Position numbers and translations under genes: made by a program. The notes below the pieces were generated by a model. The model did no database searches. It worked only from the letters and a program-made list of their open reading frames with translations, and had not been told where the DNA came from. Positions 426 to 6,703 of a stretch of DNA of 6,703 nt are shown piece after piece (positions within the stretch are counted from its first letter, which is position 1; each line of letters opens with the position of its first letter). The stretch comes from Kiritimatiellia bacterium (GTDB taxonomy: Bacteria; Verrucomicrobiota; Kiritimatiellia; RFP12; UBA1067). The DNA lies in NCBI GenBank assembly GCA_017629455.1, contig JAGBXE010000045.1, positions 1 to 6,703 on the forward strand, written 5' to 3'.

Positions 426-3400
426 ATGACAACTCTACTTGGCCTTATCTTTGCCGCAGTCGCTGCGGCTACGCCGACGCCGCAGTCGTCTGATCCATCA
501 AGTTCGTGGCAGAAGCTCCACGCTCAAAAGTTAGAGTTTTTATCTTCAATAACCGAAGCTAACGTAGTTTTTATCGGCGATAGCTTAATAAAGGCTTTCG
601 AAGAAAGCTACGGCGCGAAAGACGTTTGGGATTCAAACTGGGCGGCAGCGCCGTATGAAGCAATCAACCTTGGCTTTGCAAACGACTATACAGAAAATGT
701 CCTTTGGCGAATTACCGAAGGCGGCGAACTTGATGGCTATACGGCAAAAGTGATTGTGTTAGCCGTCGGCCACACTAATTTTAAATCGCGCGGCGATTCG
801 GTAGAAAACGCTACGCTCGGAATTAGGGCGATCTTAGATGCCATAAAAGCAAAGCAGCCAACGGCAAAGATTATTCTTTCTGCAGTTGTTCCCCAGTACG
901 CAACTCGCGACACGGCATATCTTAATAAGGTGGCCGCTGCGAATATCGAGTTTGCCAAACTAGCCGACGGTAATGTCGTAAGGTGGTGCGGATATGATAA
1001 GGCCTTCAACCGTTTGCCGCCTGGGTACATCCGCTGGACGGGCGCGCTTATGCCGCTAGTAAACGCGGCGCTTCGTAATGATGTGCCGCCATCCGCAGGC
1101 GCGGCAGAAGTAATTTCGTATCGTCCGCAAATGCCGGCAGGCGCGGTTAATGCCGATATAATTATCGACGCAAAGTCGTTCGTTGCAACGAATGCCGGTA
1201 AACGCGTTGTTCTGCGCGCAACAGGTATAGATGTTGTAGATCTTGAACTTGCCAAATATACCGATGGCCGCACAGCAATTTGGTGCGGCGTTGATAGCGA
1301 CGAAGCCGTAGCAAATCTTCTTGCCGAAGCCGCCGCCGCCGATGGGTTGCCGGTCGGGCCTTATTATCCCGAAGGAGAAGGCGAAGAGATTGTGTACGAT
1401 CGCATTGCCGCCGTTACTCCCATTACGCGAATCCGTGAGTCGAGCTGGCGCGGAGCTGACTGGTGGGGCGATAGGCTTGAGCGCAATAGAAACGTCATTA
1501 AAGCGTCGGGCGGCAAGATCGACTTTGTTTTCGCGGGCGATTCAATTACGCATTTCTGGGAGGATTACGGCCCGCAGAATTACGCCGCGCTTCAAAGCGT
1601 TTACTCAATTTTAAATTGCGGTTACGGCGGCGACCAGACGCAGAATGTTCTCTGGCGTTTCCAAAATGGCGAACTTGATGGCTACGAAGCAAAAGCCGTT
1701 ATGCTGATGATCGGCACAAACAACAACGGCATTAATGGAAATAATCCTACGAATACGGCCCGCGGTGTCGAAGCGTGCGTAGCGGAAATTAAAAGCCGTC
1801 AGCCTAAGGCAAAAATTATTCTTATGTCGTATCTTCCGAGGGCGGTCGGCACGTCCGACGGAAATCCGCTGGCCGATGGCGGCGCCCATGCGCGCAACCT
1901 GGCGACGATGGAAGTGCTCAGAGAATCGTTCGCGGGCGATGACGCAATCAAAATAGTCGATATCGCTTCGGAGTTCCTCGATGGCGAGGGCAAGATACCG
2001 AAGTCCCTGATGAGCGATTACATCCACCCGACAGAGGCGGGGTACGCCATCTGGTCGGCTGCGGTCGTGCCGATTTTCGCGGAGCTGACAGGCGTCGAGC
2101 CCGGGCACGTCAACGGCGATTATTCATGGGTCAGCGTAGGGGGCTCATACGACGGGCGCTTTGATGACCCTGCGCATTGGAATCTGAACGGGAATCACGC
2201 GGTTCCAAATCTCGATGACCGCGCATTCATCGGGTTGAACATTTATAAAAATTTTGCGATTGAGTTCCCGGATAAACTTTATGAAAATTATGCAAGGTTT
2301 TATTTAACTGTAGAATCGGGTTATTCAAGGACGCTTGATCTTTCATCGTGCGTGCTGCGTCATCCGCAAAGAACGAAGGGGACGTACAACTCGTATGGTC
2401 AGTTCGCCTTTTACTATGACGATCAGGCGCGCGACATATTGGCGCTCAACATGGCCAATGCGACGCCAGATGGCGGCATCGCACCGCATCTGGAAGTGTC
2501 GAACACGGTAATAACGGCAAGTTCGTCGGAAAGTAAAAAAATGTTTTTGAACTTCCATGGCGGCGGAGCGAATTTCAAGAGCGTTCAGGGCCATCAATGG
2601 ACCGAGGGCAATTATCCGCGTCTTTACCTTTTTAGTTTTAACAATAATAGTGGTTCTAGCGCCGAGCCGATAATGGATGAAGCCTTTATTACATTTTCGG
2701 GCGGGGCATCGTTAAGCGCTCACAATCTTTGCGTGCAGGGTAATGCTGAAACTAACGTTATTGTTTTTTCGGGTGGCAAGCACCGAGCGCTAAATGTAAA
2801 CGTTCCTGCGCGATACGACGGGCAGGCATATTCGGAGGAACGTACAGTAACTGATTTTGTCATAGAAAATGGCGCCTCTTTCGTCGTTGACGATTTAATT
2901 AACATGATGACGCATGAGCGCGCTACAAACAGGGTTGCACGCTTTATCGTAAAGAAAGGCTCGTTTTTAGGGTTAGAGCGCATGATCCAGTATTATGGCG
3001 AAAATGCGCTTATAGCTGATGGAGGTAAGATTGAATTTTCGAACAATCAGAACCTTAGCGGTAAAAAGATGAAGCAAGTGAGCTTGATAGCTCGTAACGG
3101 CGGCGAATTTGCCGTAAACCACACAGCGCCAGGTGGCGTTGGGTTGTATCTGGGGCATGATCAAGAGGTCGGAGGTACAAGCGGATGCGCTAATGTCAAT
3201 ATAGAAGGCGCATCGATGAGGGTATATTCACCTCTGGGCAAAATAGTCCTATATAGGGGCGAGGCAAAATTTGGTGAAGGGGCCTTGCTTGATAATCATT
3301 CCACTTTCAATCTGGCCGGCAAACCTGAAACTATAACGACGCTTTCATTTAACGGTGCGACGATAACAAATCATTCACGTTTCGCGATAGGCAATATTGG

Positions 3401-6335
3401 TAAGGTGAATGTGGGTATTACGAATACCGTTTTTTATTGCGATAGTTCGCTTGCTAGCGGAATTGAGACAGGCGAAGCTACCGTAGACATATCGAATATT
3501 ACAGCTACTTTTAAATCGAACGCCGGTTGGAAACTAGGTTACACCGGTGGCACGAGTTCGACGCTTAATTTCCGTTCGGGTTTTGTAGAAGCGATAGACG
3601 GCGACTCATCCGTTCAGTTCGAAGTTGGCTGTAAGGGTACGGCGCGAATGAATGTGCATGGCGGCACGCTTAACCTTGGGCGCATTCGTCTCGGAACCGA
3701 TACCGACAGCAATACGGATACGTCAGTAGAAAATGTCCTTGATATCGAAGGCGGTGTTGTGAACCTTAAAGGCGCTTTAGATGGTGACGGCCTTTGCGTT
3801 AATGCCAACCAAAGCCGCGTGTCGCGTGTAATTCTTAACGGCGGCGTTCTTAGTTGCTATCGAATTTTCAAATCAGCGGGTACGGCGCACCTTGAGGCGG
3901 ACGGTGGCACAGTTAGGTTTATTGCAAATCAGCCTTCTGCTATCGAAGGTATGGAAACGGTCGAGCTAGGTTCGCGCGGGCTTACGATTGATAATGGAGG
4001 ATTCACAGTTGGCCTTAATGCAGATTTCGCCGACAAGGTGGGCGCAAGCAGCTGTCTTACTTTGACCGGTTCTGGTGCTACGCGGCTTTTTGGTGATCTT
4101 TCAAATCTCTCGCGCGTTGCAGTTGACGGCGCAAGCGTAGATTTCTCTGCAATGACAAGTACCGGGATTGGTGCTCTTTCATTGAACAACGCTCCATTTA
4201 TAGTTCTTGATCCTAGTAAGACTATCAAGCTTTCGGGGGATTTAAATTTCAATGTTCTTAAGGTAAAGTTTACGCGCGAACTTAATGTTGGTGATGAGTG
4301 CGAATTAATGTCGTATTCAACTGTTCTAACTGAAGAAGCACGTGCGGCGTTGGCAAAAGCGCGCATTATTGAAGGTGCCGCGAAGGGCGTAGTAGTTGAA
4401 CTGTCTCAAGTAGAAAAGGGCGATGGATACGTCCTGAAGGCAACGGCACGCACGCAAGTTAATACTGTTGTTAATATAAATAATTCAAGTGTTCTTACGA
4501 GTGACATTTCATATAACATTGGCGACACCTATACAATGAACGTTGGTAGCGACGTTTCAGTTGAGCTAGCTGGCAGTGTAGACGGCGGCGAGTTTATAAA
4601 GTCGGGCGAGGGTACGCTCGCACTTACGTGCAATGACAACAGTTTTGCCGGTGGAGTTAAACTCGTTGAGGGCAGGCTTAAGGTAAATAATCCTGCAAGC
4701 CTTGGTGTCGGGAAAGATGACAATGGTAAGACACAGCTTAAAAACGGCGTTATTTATTTCGTCGGCGACGAGTGTGATTATGGCGACACATTTACGTTTG
4801 CACAAGAGACAACGAACGATCACGTAATCGTTCAAGCCGACGTTAACGTTACAGCAGGTATTCCTCATTCGCTCAATCGTACTGGCGGCTTTACGAAACG
4901 CGGGCCGGGGCGCCTTACGTTTGAAGTGTCGGGAACGGAACTTTCAATTGGCGGTCACGGCACTCACAATACATCGAAGGGCTTCTGGGCTGAGCGAGCA
5001 TCGCTAGTCTATCCGCAGCTCTTTAACGCGTTGAACGGGCTTATGACGAATGGAACATACGGCGCTTTTAACGTAACAGAAGGCGAATTGAAATTTGTTG
5101 GAAAGGGCGAAGGCGCAAAGGTTGTTTCAGAAGGAACGTTCAGCCTGTCGCTTCCTTCGGCGGGCGGAACGGCGATGCCGGGGCTGGTGCTCGACAACGT
5201 ACGATTCGACAACGGCAACAAATACATGATGTTTGCCGCGTGCACGAAATATTCGACTCCGATTGTTGACGACTTTGCCCATGAGCCGTATCTAGTTCTC
5301 ACGAACGGCGCCGTGCTCGCTGTTGGCCATTTGCAGGTCAATCGCCTTAACAACAACAAGATACAGAATACGAAAATAGACGTTGTCGATTCGACGATGC
5401 AGGTCTACTATGGCGTGGCCGCCAACCGCGCACAGGCGGGCGAGGTGCGTTCGACCTGGAACTTCCGCAATTCGGCGTTTTATCTTCCCGGCCAGAATGC
5501 AGCCATCACGCTTTTCCGCGACTTCACGATGACGTTCGACAATTCTGTTCTGGCGCGTGACGCATCGCTTTTGCCGACAGCGATTTCGACGGAGGCTGCA
5601 GTTAAGGATATTTCAAGCGGAACGTGCACGATGAATTTTGTAAACGGATCTAAATTCTGCTGCTCAAAGATTGTGCCGCCGACAGCTGATATGTCGCGAT
5701 ACCATCCAATTACGCTTAACTTCAATGGGGCAGAGTGGATTCCGACAACAACAGACGATTATACGTTTGAATGGGCTGAGCCTCAAAAGGTTGCGATAGT
5801 TGCCGACGGCGCAGGATTAAAACTTCCTGTACCTGAAGGCAAAACGTGGGTCCTGGGCCATCCGGTTGGAGGCAGCGGCGATATAGTTAACGCAGGTAAG
5901 GGTACGCTTCAATTAACTGAAGGCGTCTTGGGTGTAAGGCGTGCCGTTCGTTGCTATGAGGGCTGTATCGATCTAAATGGTCTTACTATAAGCGCGATAA
6001 CCTCTGGCGCAGGTGATATTGCAAATGGCACGATCACTAAAAGTGTAATTGAAATGAGCATCGACGATGCGTATGAAAGTGATGGCGTTCAGACTTTCAA
6101 AAATGTTTCTGTTCAAGGAGGGCTGACAGTAAATCTCGGACGCACAACGGAAAATCCGATTGCGCGCCCCTTCAAGAGTTTTGTTGTCTGCCGTTACGAT
6201 GGACAAAAACCGAACACTGCCAACGTAAGGCTTAAAGGTACGGGGGTCAGATGTTTGGGCGGTCGCTTTGAAGCCAAGGACGGCGTCGTAACGTGCACGC
6301 CAGAATATATCGGCGCTAGTATCGTAGTGAGATAA
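426..6335 (+). CDS. Giant secreted protein: tandem SGNH/GDSL hydrolase domains plus autotransporter-like beta-solenoid
   Basis: This gene encodes a 1969-residue exported protein. Residues 1-15 (MTTLLGLIFAAVAAA) form a short signal peptide, unusual in having no Lys or Arg in its n-region. Residues about 27-217 are a degenerate SGNH/GDSL domain, 218-335 an unassigned linker, and about 336-555 an intact SGNH domain resembling the alpha subunits of PAF-acetylhydrolase 1b (S373, G402, N432, D531, H534). From about 564 a module starting 'DGRFDDPAHWN' leads into about 1400 residues of Gly/Asn-rich beta-solenoid, with a clear PATR motif at 1387-1428. I see no C-terminal beta-barrel, LPxTG, PEP-CTERM or transmembrane anchor; the chain ends in a hydrophobic strand and Arg. 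The predicted role is hydrolysis of an ester, probably deacetylation of a carbohydrate or lipid, outside the cytoplasm, with the solenoid as stalk or binding surface. Architecture is well supported; substrate is unknown. Composition is patchy, with G+C-rich stretches around 1981-2160 and 5161-5220. Confidence 0.9.
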   Translation: MTTLLGLIFAAVAAATPTPQSSDPSSSWQKLHAQKLEFLSSITEANVVFIGDSLIKAFEESYGAKDVWDSNWAAAPYEAINLGFANDYTENVLWRITEGGELDGYTAKVIVLAVGHTNFKSRGDSVENATLGIRAILDAIKAKQPTAKIILSAVVPQYATRDTAYLNKVAAANIEFAKLADGNVVRWCGYDKAFNRLPPGYIRWTGALMPLVNAALRNDVPPSAGAAEVISYRPQMPAGAVNADIIIDAKSFVATNAGKRVVLRATGIDVVDLELAKYTDGRTAIWCGVDSDEAVANLLAEAAAADGLPVGPYYPEGEGEEIVYDRIAAVTPITRIRESSWRGADWWGDRLERNRNVIKASGGKIDFVFAGDSITHFWEDYGPQNYAALQSVYSILNCGYGGDQTQNVLWRFQNGELDGYEAKAVMLMIGTNNNGINGNNPTNTARGVEACVAEIKSRQPKAKIILMSYLPRAVGTSDGNPLADGGAHARNLATMEVLRESFAGDDAIKIVDIASEFLDGEGKIPKSLMSDYIHPTEAGYAIWSAAVVPIFAELTGVEPGHVNGDYSWVSVGGSYDGRFDDPAHWNLNGNHAVPNLDDRAFIGLNIYKNFAIEFPDKLYENYARFYLTVESGYSRTLDLSSCVLRHPQRTKGTYNSYGQFAFYYDDQARDILALNMANATPDGGIAPHLEVSNTVITASSSESKKMFLNFHGGGANFKSVQGHQWTEGNYPRLYLFSFNNNSGSSAEPIMDEAFITFSGGASLSAHNLCVQGNAETNVIVFSGGKHRALNVNVPARYDGQAYSEERTVTDFVIENGASFVVDDLINMMTHERATNRVARFIVKKGSFLGLERMIQYYGENALIADGGKIEFSNNQNLSGKKMKQVSLIARNGGEFAVNHTAPGGVGLYLGHDQEVGGTSGCANVNIEGASMRVYSPLGKIVLYRGEAKFGEGALLDNHSTFNLAGKPETITTLSFNGATITNHSRFAIGNIGKVNVGITNTVFYCDSSLASGIETGEATVDISNITATFKSNAGWKLGYTGGTSSTLNFRSGFVEAIDGDSSVQFEVGCKGTARMNVHGGTLNLGRIRLGTDTDSNTDTSVENVLDIEGGVVNLKGALDGDGLCVNANQSRVSRVILNGGVLSCYRIFKSAGTAHLEADGGTVRFIANQPSAIEGMETVELGSRGLTIDNGGFTVGLNADFADKVGASSCLTLTGSGATRLFGDLSNLSRVAVDGASVDFSAMTSTGIGALSLNNAPFIVLDPSKTIKLSGDLNFNVLKVKFTRELNVGDECELMSYSTVLTEEARAALAKARIIEGAAKGVVVELSQVEKGDGYVLKATARTQVNTVVNINNSSVLTSDISYNIGDTYTMNVGSDVSVELAGSVDGGEFIKSGEGTLALTCNDNSFAGGVKLVEGRLKVNNPASLGVGKDDNGKTQLKNGVIYFVGDECDYGDTFTFAQETTNDHVIVQADVNVTAGIPHSLNRTGGFTKRGPGRLTFEVSGTELSIGGHGTHNTSKGFWAERASLVYPQLFNALNGLMTNGTYGAFNVTEGELKFVGKGEGAKVVSEGTFSLSLPSAGGTAMPGLVLDNVRFDNGNKYMMFAACTKYSTPIVDDFAHEPYLVLTNGAVLAVGHLQVNRLNNNKIQNTKIDVVDSTMQVYYGVAANRAQAGEVRSTWNFRNSAFYLPGQNAAITLFRDFTMTFDNSVLARDASLLPTAISTEAAVKDISSGTCTMNFVNGSKFCCSKIVPPTADMSRYHPITLNFNGAEWIPTTTDDYTFEWAEPQKVAIVADGAGLKLPVPEGKTWVLGHPVGGSGDIVNAGKGTLQLTEGVLGVRRAVRCYEGCIDLNGLTISAITSGAGDIANGTITKSVIEMSIDDAYESDGVQTFKNVSVQGGLTVNLGRTTENPIARPFKSFVVCRYDGQKPNTANVRLKGTGVRCLGGRFEAKDGVVTCTPEYIGASIVVR
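504..1076 (+). other. SGNH/GDSL domain 1, predicted catalytically dead
   Basis: Residues 27-217 of the giant protein form a hydrolase fold related to domain 2. Shared landmarks are 'VVFIGDS' (S53), 'NVLWR' (91-95), 'ELDGY' (101-105) and 'AKIIL' (147-151). Aligned by these landmarks, the oxyanion Gly (G402 in domain 2) is N86, the block III Asn (N432) is T117 in 'GHTN', the catalytic Asp (D531) is G200 and the catalytic His (H534) is R203 in 'GYIR'. Only the nucleophile Ser survives. The fold assignment is firm; loss of activity is inferred from these substitutions. A binding or structural role is the simplest alternative to hydrolysis. Confidence 0.8.
1077..1430 (+). other. Unassigned inter-domain segment
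   Basis: Residues 218-335 lie between the two SGNH domains and match no family I recognise. The first part (about 225-290) alternates hydrophobic and polar residues (for example 'ADIIID', 'KRVVLRA', 'VVDLELAKY'), suggesting a small beta-rich domain. It is followed by an Ala-rich helix (about 292-306) and an acidic, Gly/Pro-containing linker ('YYPEGEGEE', 314-322). A 'WCG' tripeptide occurs here (286-288) and near the end of domain 1 (187-189). Confidence 0.45.
1431..2090 (+). other. SGNH/GDSL domain 2, PAF-acetylhydrolase-like, intact active site
   Basis: Residues 336-555 carry all SGNH blocks. Block I is 'FAGDSITHFW' with nucleophile S373, block II 'GYGGD' with oxyanion G402, block III 'GTNN' with N432, and block V 'DYIHP' with D531 and H534. 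'NVLWRFQNGELDGY', 'RQPKAKIIL' and 'LPR' closely follow the mammalian PAF-acetylhydrolase 1b alpha subunits ('HVLWRLxNGEL', 'RQPQA', 'LLPRG'). An N-terminal 'WWGDRLERN' helix is typical of bacterial members. Known reactions of the family are removal of acetyl or short acyl esters. In an exported protein, an O-acetylated polysaccharide or glycan is a plausible substrate, but this is inference. Confidence 0.9.
3636..4025 (+). repeat. Gly-Gly rung repeats, about 30 residues apart
   Basis: Residues 1071-1200 contain five strand-turn units of the form hydrophobic-x-(H/E/N/D)-G-G-(T/V/F)-hydrophobic: 'VHGGTLNL', 'IEGGVVNL', 'LNGGVLSC', 'ADGGTVRF' and 'DNGGFTVG'. The Gly pairs end at 1080, 1110, 1140, 1161 and 1192, giving spacings of 30, 30, 21 and 31 residues. 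This is the most regular part of the solenoid. The repeat is at protein level; no long exact DNA repeat was seen. Confidence 0.6.
4584..4709 (+). repeat. Passenger-associated transport repeat (autotransporter-associated beta strand)
   Basis: Residues 1387-1428 fit the PATR pattern G-x-x-x-K-x-G-x-G-T-L-x-L ... F-x-G-G-(V)-x-(L)-x-E-G-x-L-x-V: 'KSGEGTLAL' followed by 'SFAGGVKLVEGRLKV' and 'ASLGVG'. This repeat is known from autotransporter passengers and from large secreted proteins of Verrucomicrobiota-type bacteria. Degenerate half-copies are seen at 1491-1499 ('KRGPGRLTF', with a partner 'VTEGELKF' at 1550-1557) and at 1823-1830 ('AGKGTLQL'). Confidence 0.8.
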
Positions 6336-6340: not shown

Positions 6341-6348
6341 ACATGGAT

Positions 6349-6703
6349 ATGAAAACATTCAGAGTTGTAGGATTGTTAGTAGGAGCATTCTTAGCGTCAA
6401 ATGCGATTTCTGAAGAGGCGCTTGTCGGGGATCAGCTTTCAATTCGTTTTGCTGATGCATCTGAAGGCTTTGGTATACGTGGTTTTGAAAATAAGATCGA
6501 AGGAGAAAAGACATCATTTGTAAATGGTGCATCTTCAGGGGCTGATTTCTGGGCGCTTATTTTTCATTCACGCAAGGCCGACGGGAGTATCGACAAGGTA
6601 AGAGTCGATAATCGCTCACCAGCTCGCAACAGGCGGATAGAAAAAACCGATAAGGTCTGGAAGTTTATTTGGGAAGGATTGGATGTCGGCACAGAAAAGG
6701 GCG
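6349..6703 (+). CDS. Secreted protein of unknown function, N-terminal part (3' end outside window)
   Basis: The frame stays open to the end of the window, giving 118 codons. Residues 1-18 (MKTFRVVGLLVGAFLASN) form a good signal peptide with a basic n-region, a hydrophobic core and likely cleavage near 'SNA-IS'. The mature part starts with 'GDQLSIRFADASEGFGIRG' and continues with alternating beta strands, 'DFWALIF', 'PARNRR' and 'WKFIWEGLDV'. Opening strands of the type 'L-x-(I/V)-x-F-x-x-x-x-x-G-x-x-I' resemble the galactose-mutarotase-like beta-sandwich that begins some large secreted glycoside hydrolases in Verrucomicrobiota and Planctomycetes. This is a weak resemblance, not an identification. 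The gene starts 13 bases after the stop of the giant gene with no terminator between, so the two are probably co-transcribed. An alternative start at 6343 would add Met-Asp. The gene is certain; its function is not. Confidence 0.8.
   Translation, partial: MKTFRVVGLLVGAFLASNAISEEALVGDQLSIRFADASEGFGIRGFENKIEGEKTSFVNGASSGADFWALIFHSRKADGSIDKVRVDNRSPARNRRIEKTDKVWKFIWEGLDVGTEKG

Follow-up and report, generated by a model that had tools for sequence, protein, structure and literature searches.

The window, a stretch of 6,703 nucleotides from a Kiritimatiellia bacterium, encodes a long protein in which an SGNH domain that appears catalytically dead (D1) precedes a complete SGNH domain (D2). D1 lost the segment that would hold its catalytic Asp and His by deletion, and outside its former catalytic columns it has been conserved. 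With moderate confidence, we read the protein as a secreted carbohydrate O-acetylesterase in which D2 is live and D1 is kept as a folded, non-catalytic partner or scaffold. D1 would descend from a twin that was probably live, would have lost its Asp/His loop by deletion, and would have been retained as a folded partner of D2 in one chain, forming an intramolecular pseudo-dimer or scaffold. The features on which this reading draws are collected in Table 1.

Table 1. Features of the window protein and of one related gene row (nucleotide positions in the window unless another locus is named)
Feature	Position	Strand	Description
Whole ORF, 1969 aa	426..6335	+	signal-peptide-like start, D1, half module, D2, long C-terminal part
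D1, residues 27-222	504..1091	+	SGNH fold without block V; predicted non-catalytic
S53, former nucleophile position	582..584	+	Glu in P0123 and P0124
N86 replacing block II Gly	681..683	+	Ser in P0123, Gly in P0124
T117 replacing block III Asn	774..776	+	Cys in P0123, Asn in P0124
Residues 189-199, shortened loop	990..1022	+	block V segment (Asp/His, about 16 residues) missing here
GYIRW (200-204), start of last D1 helix	1023..1037	+	equivalent to D2 GYAIW (539-543), not DYIH
Third, half SGNH module, residues 242-302	1149..1331	+	predicted alpha-beta-alpha-beta-alpha; profile-profile match at residues 242-291
D2, residues 335-556	1428..2093	+	complete PAF-AH-like SGNH domain; S373, G402, N432, D531, H534
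C-terminal part, residues 557-1969	2094..6332	+	about 1400 residues after D2
Autotransporter-type beta-strand repeat, residues 1390-1421	4593-4688	+	one copy; TIGR02601 25.7 bits, cut-off 19.85
Operon-like SGNH row	L036 4692-13015		PF00756 esterase gene upstream with one gene between; GT4 glycosyltransferase gene directly downstream

A dead and an intact SGNH domain in one chain

The preliminary description of this DNA had placed both domains in one open frame, with S53, N86, T117, G200, and R203 of D1 set against S373, G402, N432, D531, and H534 of D2. All ten residues and the open frame were as described, and the likeness of the two domains reflects real homology rather than chance (blastp 82 bits, E 3e-24). 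Residues 27-250 alone matched PF13472 at 36.2 bits against a cut-off of 32.9, and D1 has both the homology and the predicted fold of an SGNH domain. D2 alone matched the same family at 88.0 bits and carries blocks I, II, III, and V with their Ser, Gly, Asn, Asp, and His, on a predicted PAF-AH Ib-alpha fold. We infer that D2 works as an esterase, belonging to the PAF-AH Ib-alpha class of SGNH hydrolases. In D1, S53 alone remains of the catalytic Ser, Gly, Asn, Asp, and His; N86 and T117 stand in for Gly and Asn, block V is gone, and judged by these residues the domain is catalytically dead. A Pfam GDSL match in a gut metagenome need not denote an esterase, given that the dead D1 passes the PF13472 cut-off.

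Loss of block V by deletion

The codons GGG-TAC-ATC-CGC in D1 and GAT-TAC-ATC-CAC in D2 are present as reported, and from them block V had been described as differing by two substituted codons, with G200 and R203 opposite D531 and H534. That pairing was wrong, as G200 corresponds to G539. In homolog alignments (including 31 proteins), the D1 sequence GYIRWTGALMPLVN paired with GYxxW..A..P.VN downstream of block V. In the predicted structure, the last helix of D1 starts at residue 201 and that of D2 at residue 537 (182 and 518 in the model, whose numbering begins at residue 20 of the protein); G200-Y201 opens the former as G539-Y540 lies at the start of the latter. Counted from the Asp column at the strand end to this GY, live D1s have a spacer of 26-27 residues and the window protein has one of 27 in D2 and 11 in D1, from which we conclude that about 16 residues holding Asp and His were deleted. 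Alignments, model, and spacer together rule out substitution: the segment was deleted, not mutated, and the two codon strings resemble each other by chance.

Other Asp and His residues of D1 forming a working triad had been named as evidence that would overturn the idea of a gutted site. Such a hidden triad is ruled out because D1 has no suitable His. A His after block III is missing in 13 of the 15 collected D1s that share the block V deletion, hereafter deleted-type D1s.

A half SGNH module in the linker

Between D1 and D2 lies a half SGNH module that the earlier reading overlooked. The linkers of the window protein (residues 221-312), P0123, P0124, and P0002, together with stretches of P0126 and P0108, matched the C-terminal half of D1 at 15.3 to 44.7 bits, scores reached by 0 of 300 shuffles of each row. 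Against a model of 137 live D1s only, the same six rows scored 11.3 to 37.4 bits, the window linker being the row at 11.3 bits, and again none of the shuffles (1000 for each row) reached these values. As a control, 84 pieces of C-terminal parts scored at most 0.7 bits against the live-D1 model. Comparing a four-row linker alignment with the 137 live D1s in hhalign gave a probability of 97.2 and E 4.4e-11. The module is thus homologous to the C-terminal half of an SGNH domain, and the AlphaFold2 model of the tandem predicts residues 242-302 as alpha-beta-alpha-beta-alpha.

All six rows scored lower against the D2 model than against the D1 model, and the window linker did not rise above its own shuffles with the D2 model (5 of 300 reached its score), which argues that the module is kin to D1. 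It may be the remnant of a further D1-type copy. An alignment placing it against D2 (A5) was set aside and not used for folding. The same element order is found in the ZfL2-1 ORF1p esterase, whose SGNH domain, in the relevant passages of PMC3905857, can split into an N-terminal half and an alpha-beta-alpha-beta-alpha C-terminal half; there the halves are described as part of one complete, active esterase, unlike the half module of the window.

Intact, altered, and deleted first domains across the family

The protein collection comprised 189 proteins, including the window's own, from overlapping searches (all 33 matches of one, the best 120 of 680, and the best 120 of 984); its rows are clusters at 90% identity and are not mutually independent. 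Two SGNH matches were present in 163 proteins, three in 3, and one in 23. Among the 163 tandem proteins, D1 carried S-(G/A/S)-N-D-H in 138, was altered in 24, and was truncated in one (P0032). D2 carried S-(G/A)-N-(D/E)-H in 160 and was altered or incomplete in 3, an asymmetry that is partly a sampling effect, since the queries had a live D2. Block V was deleted in 15 of the 24 altered D1s, and in 11 of these the nucleophile had become Glu. P0003, P0005, P0017, P0019, P0022, and P0023 had point losses in D1. In P0126 D1 was reduced to a remnant, which implies that D1 can be dispensable. Wherever the nucleophile Ser of D1 was replaced in the 163 proteins, the new residue was mostly acidic (11 Glu and 1 Asp versus 5 other letters). 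In P0012, P0016, P0018, and P0030, D2 has GSS for GDS and GSNN for GTNN, with all five catalytic residues kept.

A search of genome contigs with alignment A1 retained 80 loci of 406, in which 44 of 68 tandem ORFs were live in both halves. Taken with the 138 intact D1s of the collection, this makes the tandem with two live sites the common state, and on that ground a live D1 is probably ancestral to a dead one. Titles of the tandem-pair loci named Kiritimatiellota, Verrucomicrobiota, Lentisphaerota, Bacteroidota, Pseudomonadota, or no phylum. Tandem proteins of Kiritimatiellota and relatives (L001, L004, L012, L016) share the two-domain layout of the window but have both sites intact. None of the 80 loci examined contained a first domain with block V deleted, and deleted-type D1 queries reached best identities of 42-47% against 110 loci. 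Close relatives of the window protein were not listed in searches of 345 and 387 genomes (overlapping sets), and none were confirmed in viral contigs or, using a single-protein query, in genome contigs. In tandem proteins of four loci from Xanthomonas and Bacteroidota (L002, L003, L067, L080), the second domain has Trp where block II would have its Gly, a placement that depends on the alignment.

In a D1 tree of 62 proteins with catalytic and block V columns omitted, 14 of the 15 deleted-type D1s fell together with P0003 in one starred set and P0012 fell elsewhere. A single origin of the deletion was rejected on this tree (p-AU 0.006), implying at least two origins. The D2 tree of the same 62 proteins needed five changes, partly owing to the chimera P0011, and both trees were quick, midpoint-rooted estimates with one support measure. 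The D1 of P0011 was 89% identical to that of P0024 and its D2 89% identical to that of P0013, from which SGNH domains seem to have been exchanged between paralogs.

Altered halves in operon-like rows of ruminant-gut genomes

Seven loci whose titles name rumen, omasum, or jejunum (L022, L027, L028, L036, L055, L066, L075) contained rows of 3 to 6 SGNH genes on one strand, with conserved order wherever a locus end does not interrupt the row. Their proteins lie outside the clade of the window. A rule that only D1 dies was rejected, since three of the gene types in these rows have an altered D2: types A and E changed Asn to Ala and lost His, and type B changed its nucleophile to Asp or Glu and lost Asn. 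Type F, the last gene of the row, has Asp or Glu at the D1 nucleophile and Asp at the D2 nucleophile, with the Asn of D2 also missing. Acidic replacement of the nucleophile affected 18 of the 67 domains in the seven loci, many of which are mutual orthologs.

To quantify constraint, dN/dS was calculated by NG86 with our own script on ortholog groups defined by state and order. Each group comprised 3 to 21 pairs with a median dS of 0.44-1.10, and individual pairs reached dN/dS values of up to 0.444. Median dN/dS of the altered D2 was 0.156 in type A, 0.264 in B, and 0.155 in E, about twice that of the live D1 in the same proteins (0.079, 0.130, and 0.083). Type F, altered in both halves, had medians of 0.101 for D1 and 0.151 for D2, and the live halves had medians of 0.174 and 0.118 in type C and 0.121 and 0.178 in type D. 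With medians of 0.10-0.26, against 0.08-0.18 for live halves, the altered halves are evidently kept by selection.

Tentatively, and with some doubt, we generalize that tandem SGNH proteins of the ruminant gut repeatedly turn one or both halves into conserved non-catalytic modules, often acidic at the nucleophile, which would serve as pseudo-esterase partners of live twins and would include the doubly dead member of these rows. Pseudo-esterase partners beside live twins are comparable in logic to pseudokinase-kinase pairs, and pseudoenzymes are well studied for kinases but much less so for carbohydrate esterases. This single family includes intact pairs and several losses, along with a half module and a paralog that is dead in both halves and under purifying selection. 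Comparison of its natural live/live, dead/live, and dead/dead pairs offers a way to test what a live SGNH domain gains from a dead one.

Pseudo-SGNH domains are already known. The C-terminal domain of Oskar (PMC2848206), Arabidopsis ERMO3/MVP1/GOLD36 (PMC3498303), and plant GELP pseudoenzymes (PMC8490726) are called inactive or pseudoenzymes, and the passages of these sources that concern the domain describe no live twin in the same chain. Among the titles and opening lines of abstracts listed from the open-access literature, none concerned a family whose members pair a live with a dead SGNH domain in a single chain. The "two SGNH" of PMC13123978 refers, in the passage concerned, to two proteins rather than two domains and is no tandem precedent.

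Constraint on the dead domain and its possible role

Compared with its full-length relatives P0123 and P0124, the window protein was 70% identical in D1, 70-71% in D2, 59% in the linker, and 42-56% in four C-terminal pieces. P0123 and P0124 were themselves 95% identical in D1, 92% in D2, 94% in the linker, and 72-94% in the C-terminal pieces, with the middle C-terminal parts (93-94%) close to D1, so only the window comparison sets D1 apart. The former catalytic columns changed faster than the rest of D1. The preliminary description had singled out columns 53, 86, and 117, and in all of them the window protein differs from both relatives (P = 0.026 and 0.027; the two tests are not independent). 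P0123 and P0124 themselves differ at just 10 of 194 D1 positions, two of which belong to these three columns (P = 0.007). In D2, the five catalytic columns were unchanged in all three pairs. This pattern would fit selection on the fold or on a surface and not on a pocket.

Within the same subfamily, mean pairwise identity of D1 was 0.62 among 12 deleted-type proteins versus 0.78 among 11 live ones, and that of D2 was 0.66 versus 0.70. Deleted-type D1 thus appears looser than live D1, yet not free. Its N-terminal helix was among the most relaxed parts (0.50 versus 0.64), whereas that of D2 was not relaxed (0.72 versus 0.69). The preliminary description had proposed selection on D1 for a non-catalytic role and had held that random variation or absence of D1 in homologs would speak against it. 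Part of this survives: D1 is as conserved as D2 relative to P0123 and P0124, but it is looser than live D1s and in P0126 it is largely missing. The substitutions themselves are not conserved, as columns 53, 86, and 117 differ between the window and its close relatives.

AlphaFold2 modeled the tandem with pLDDT 92.3 and pTM 0.90 and D1 alone with pLDDT 92.2 and pTM 0.91. The analysis used Foldseek and VIA-align, and the best structural matches of both models were PAF-AH Ib alpha chains. The pTM of the tandem suggests a fixed D1-D2 arrangement. In PAF-AH Ib alpha1/alpha2 (1WAB, 1FXW), two separate subunits dimerize, and the Phocaeicola vulgatus sialic acid acetylesterase PvSAE (7PZG) is a homodimer with both sites live; in contrast, the window protein is a single chain that adds a half module and some 1400 more residues to its two domains, one of them dead. 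Passages of PMC9063846 describe the N-terminal helix of one subunit contacting the Asp/His loop of its partner in PvSAE and PAF-AH dimers, and by analogy a dead in-chain D1 could contact the Asp/His loop of D2. Conservation leans against a scaffold in which the D1 N-terminal helix braces this loop, given the relaxation of that helix. Because the helix is among the less conserved parts of D1, our confidence in the scaffold role is no more than moderate. Nor does the SGNH fold generally need a partner: passages of PMC3905857 and PMC9063846 describe both E. coli NanS and the ZfL2-1 esterase as monomeric.

Instead of supporting D2 structurally, D1 might have been repurposed as a binding module, its former pocket gripping a glycan or an acetylated sugar and presenting substrate to D2, an alternative we consider fairly unlikely. 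Replacement of the nucleophile by Glu in most deleted-type D1s suggests that the pocket was altered non-randomly, and in 12 of these D1s position 117 is Asn in 10, 118 is Asn in all, 122 is Arg in all, and 56 is His in 10. Acidic replacement in the operon-like rows would also suit a binding role. However, pocket columns vary among the window protein, P0123, and P0124, in that order: 53 (S/E/E), 56 (K/Q/Q), 86 (N/S/G), and 117 (T/C/N); H116 and N118 are common to all three.

It is unlikely that D1 is simply on its way out, a slowly decaying dead duplicate of little use with the half module and P0126 as later stages. The family does offer a graded series from intact D1 through point losses and deletion to a remnant, and the looser D1 of deleted types accords with decay. 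On the other hand, D1 of the window is conserved like D2, its predicted fold is intact, and altered halves in the operon-like rows are under purifying selection. That D1 is still an enzyme of another chemistry, with S53 (or the Glu of relatives) in a new catalytic role, is highly improbable, as the recurrent Asp/Glu at the nucleophile is outweighed by the unconserved former catalytic columns, the missing Asp/His loop, and the general lack of a His after block III.

Probable substrate, secretion, and surroundings

Clues to the likely substrate of D2 come from distant homologs. We Pfam-scanned 8 of 32 long relatives (the window's own excluded), picked for carbohydrate-looking Pfam accessions. 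Beside SGNH, they carried GH106, GH28, GH3, GH43, GH115, GH10 with a glucuronyl esterase, AXE1, or WbsX with BD-FAE. These fusions point to a plant polysaccharide target and hence to deacetylation, and D2 most likely removes acetyl groups from polysaccharide. The hydrophobic N-terminal stretch resembles a signal peptide, and the protein is presumably a secreted or surface enzyme.

PF12951 scored 19.5 bits on the autotransporter-type repeat, under its cut-off of 27, and the remainder of the C-terminal part is probably beta-rich and extracellular. When the whole ORF was scanned against Pfam at E values up to 1, four families were listed, none of them a beta-barrel translocator. With no C-terminal barrel in that scan and a single beta-strand repeat, the protein is not a classical autotransporter. 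The C-terminal part is common to the window protein, P0123, and P0124, whereas P0002, at 557 aa, lacks it, which places its gain or loss inside a small clade. P0122, on a contig of 37,578 bases, is the same protein as the window ORF with 3 differences, and the organism-named rows among the protein relatives (n = 3) are all Kiritimatiellae. Upstream, an ORF cut by the window edge (3-398) had a VIT-family match under the cut-off. Downstream, a second ORF cut by the edge (6343-6702), for which no family was found, starts 7 bases past the stop of the main ORF and looks secreted.
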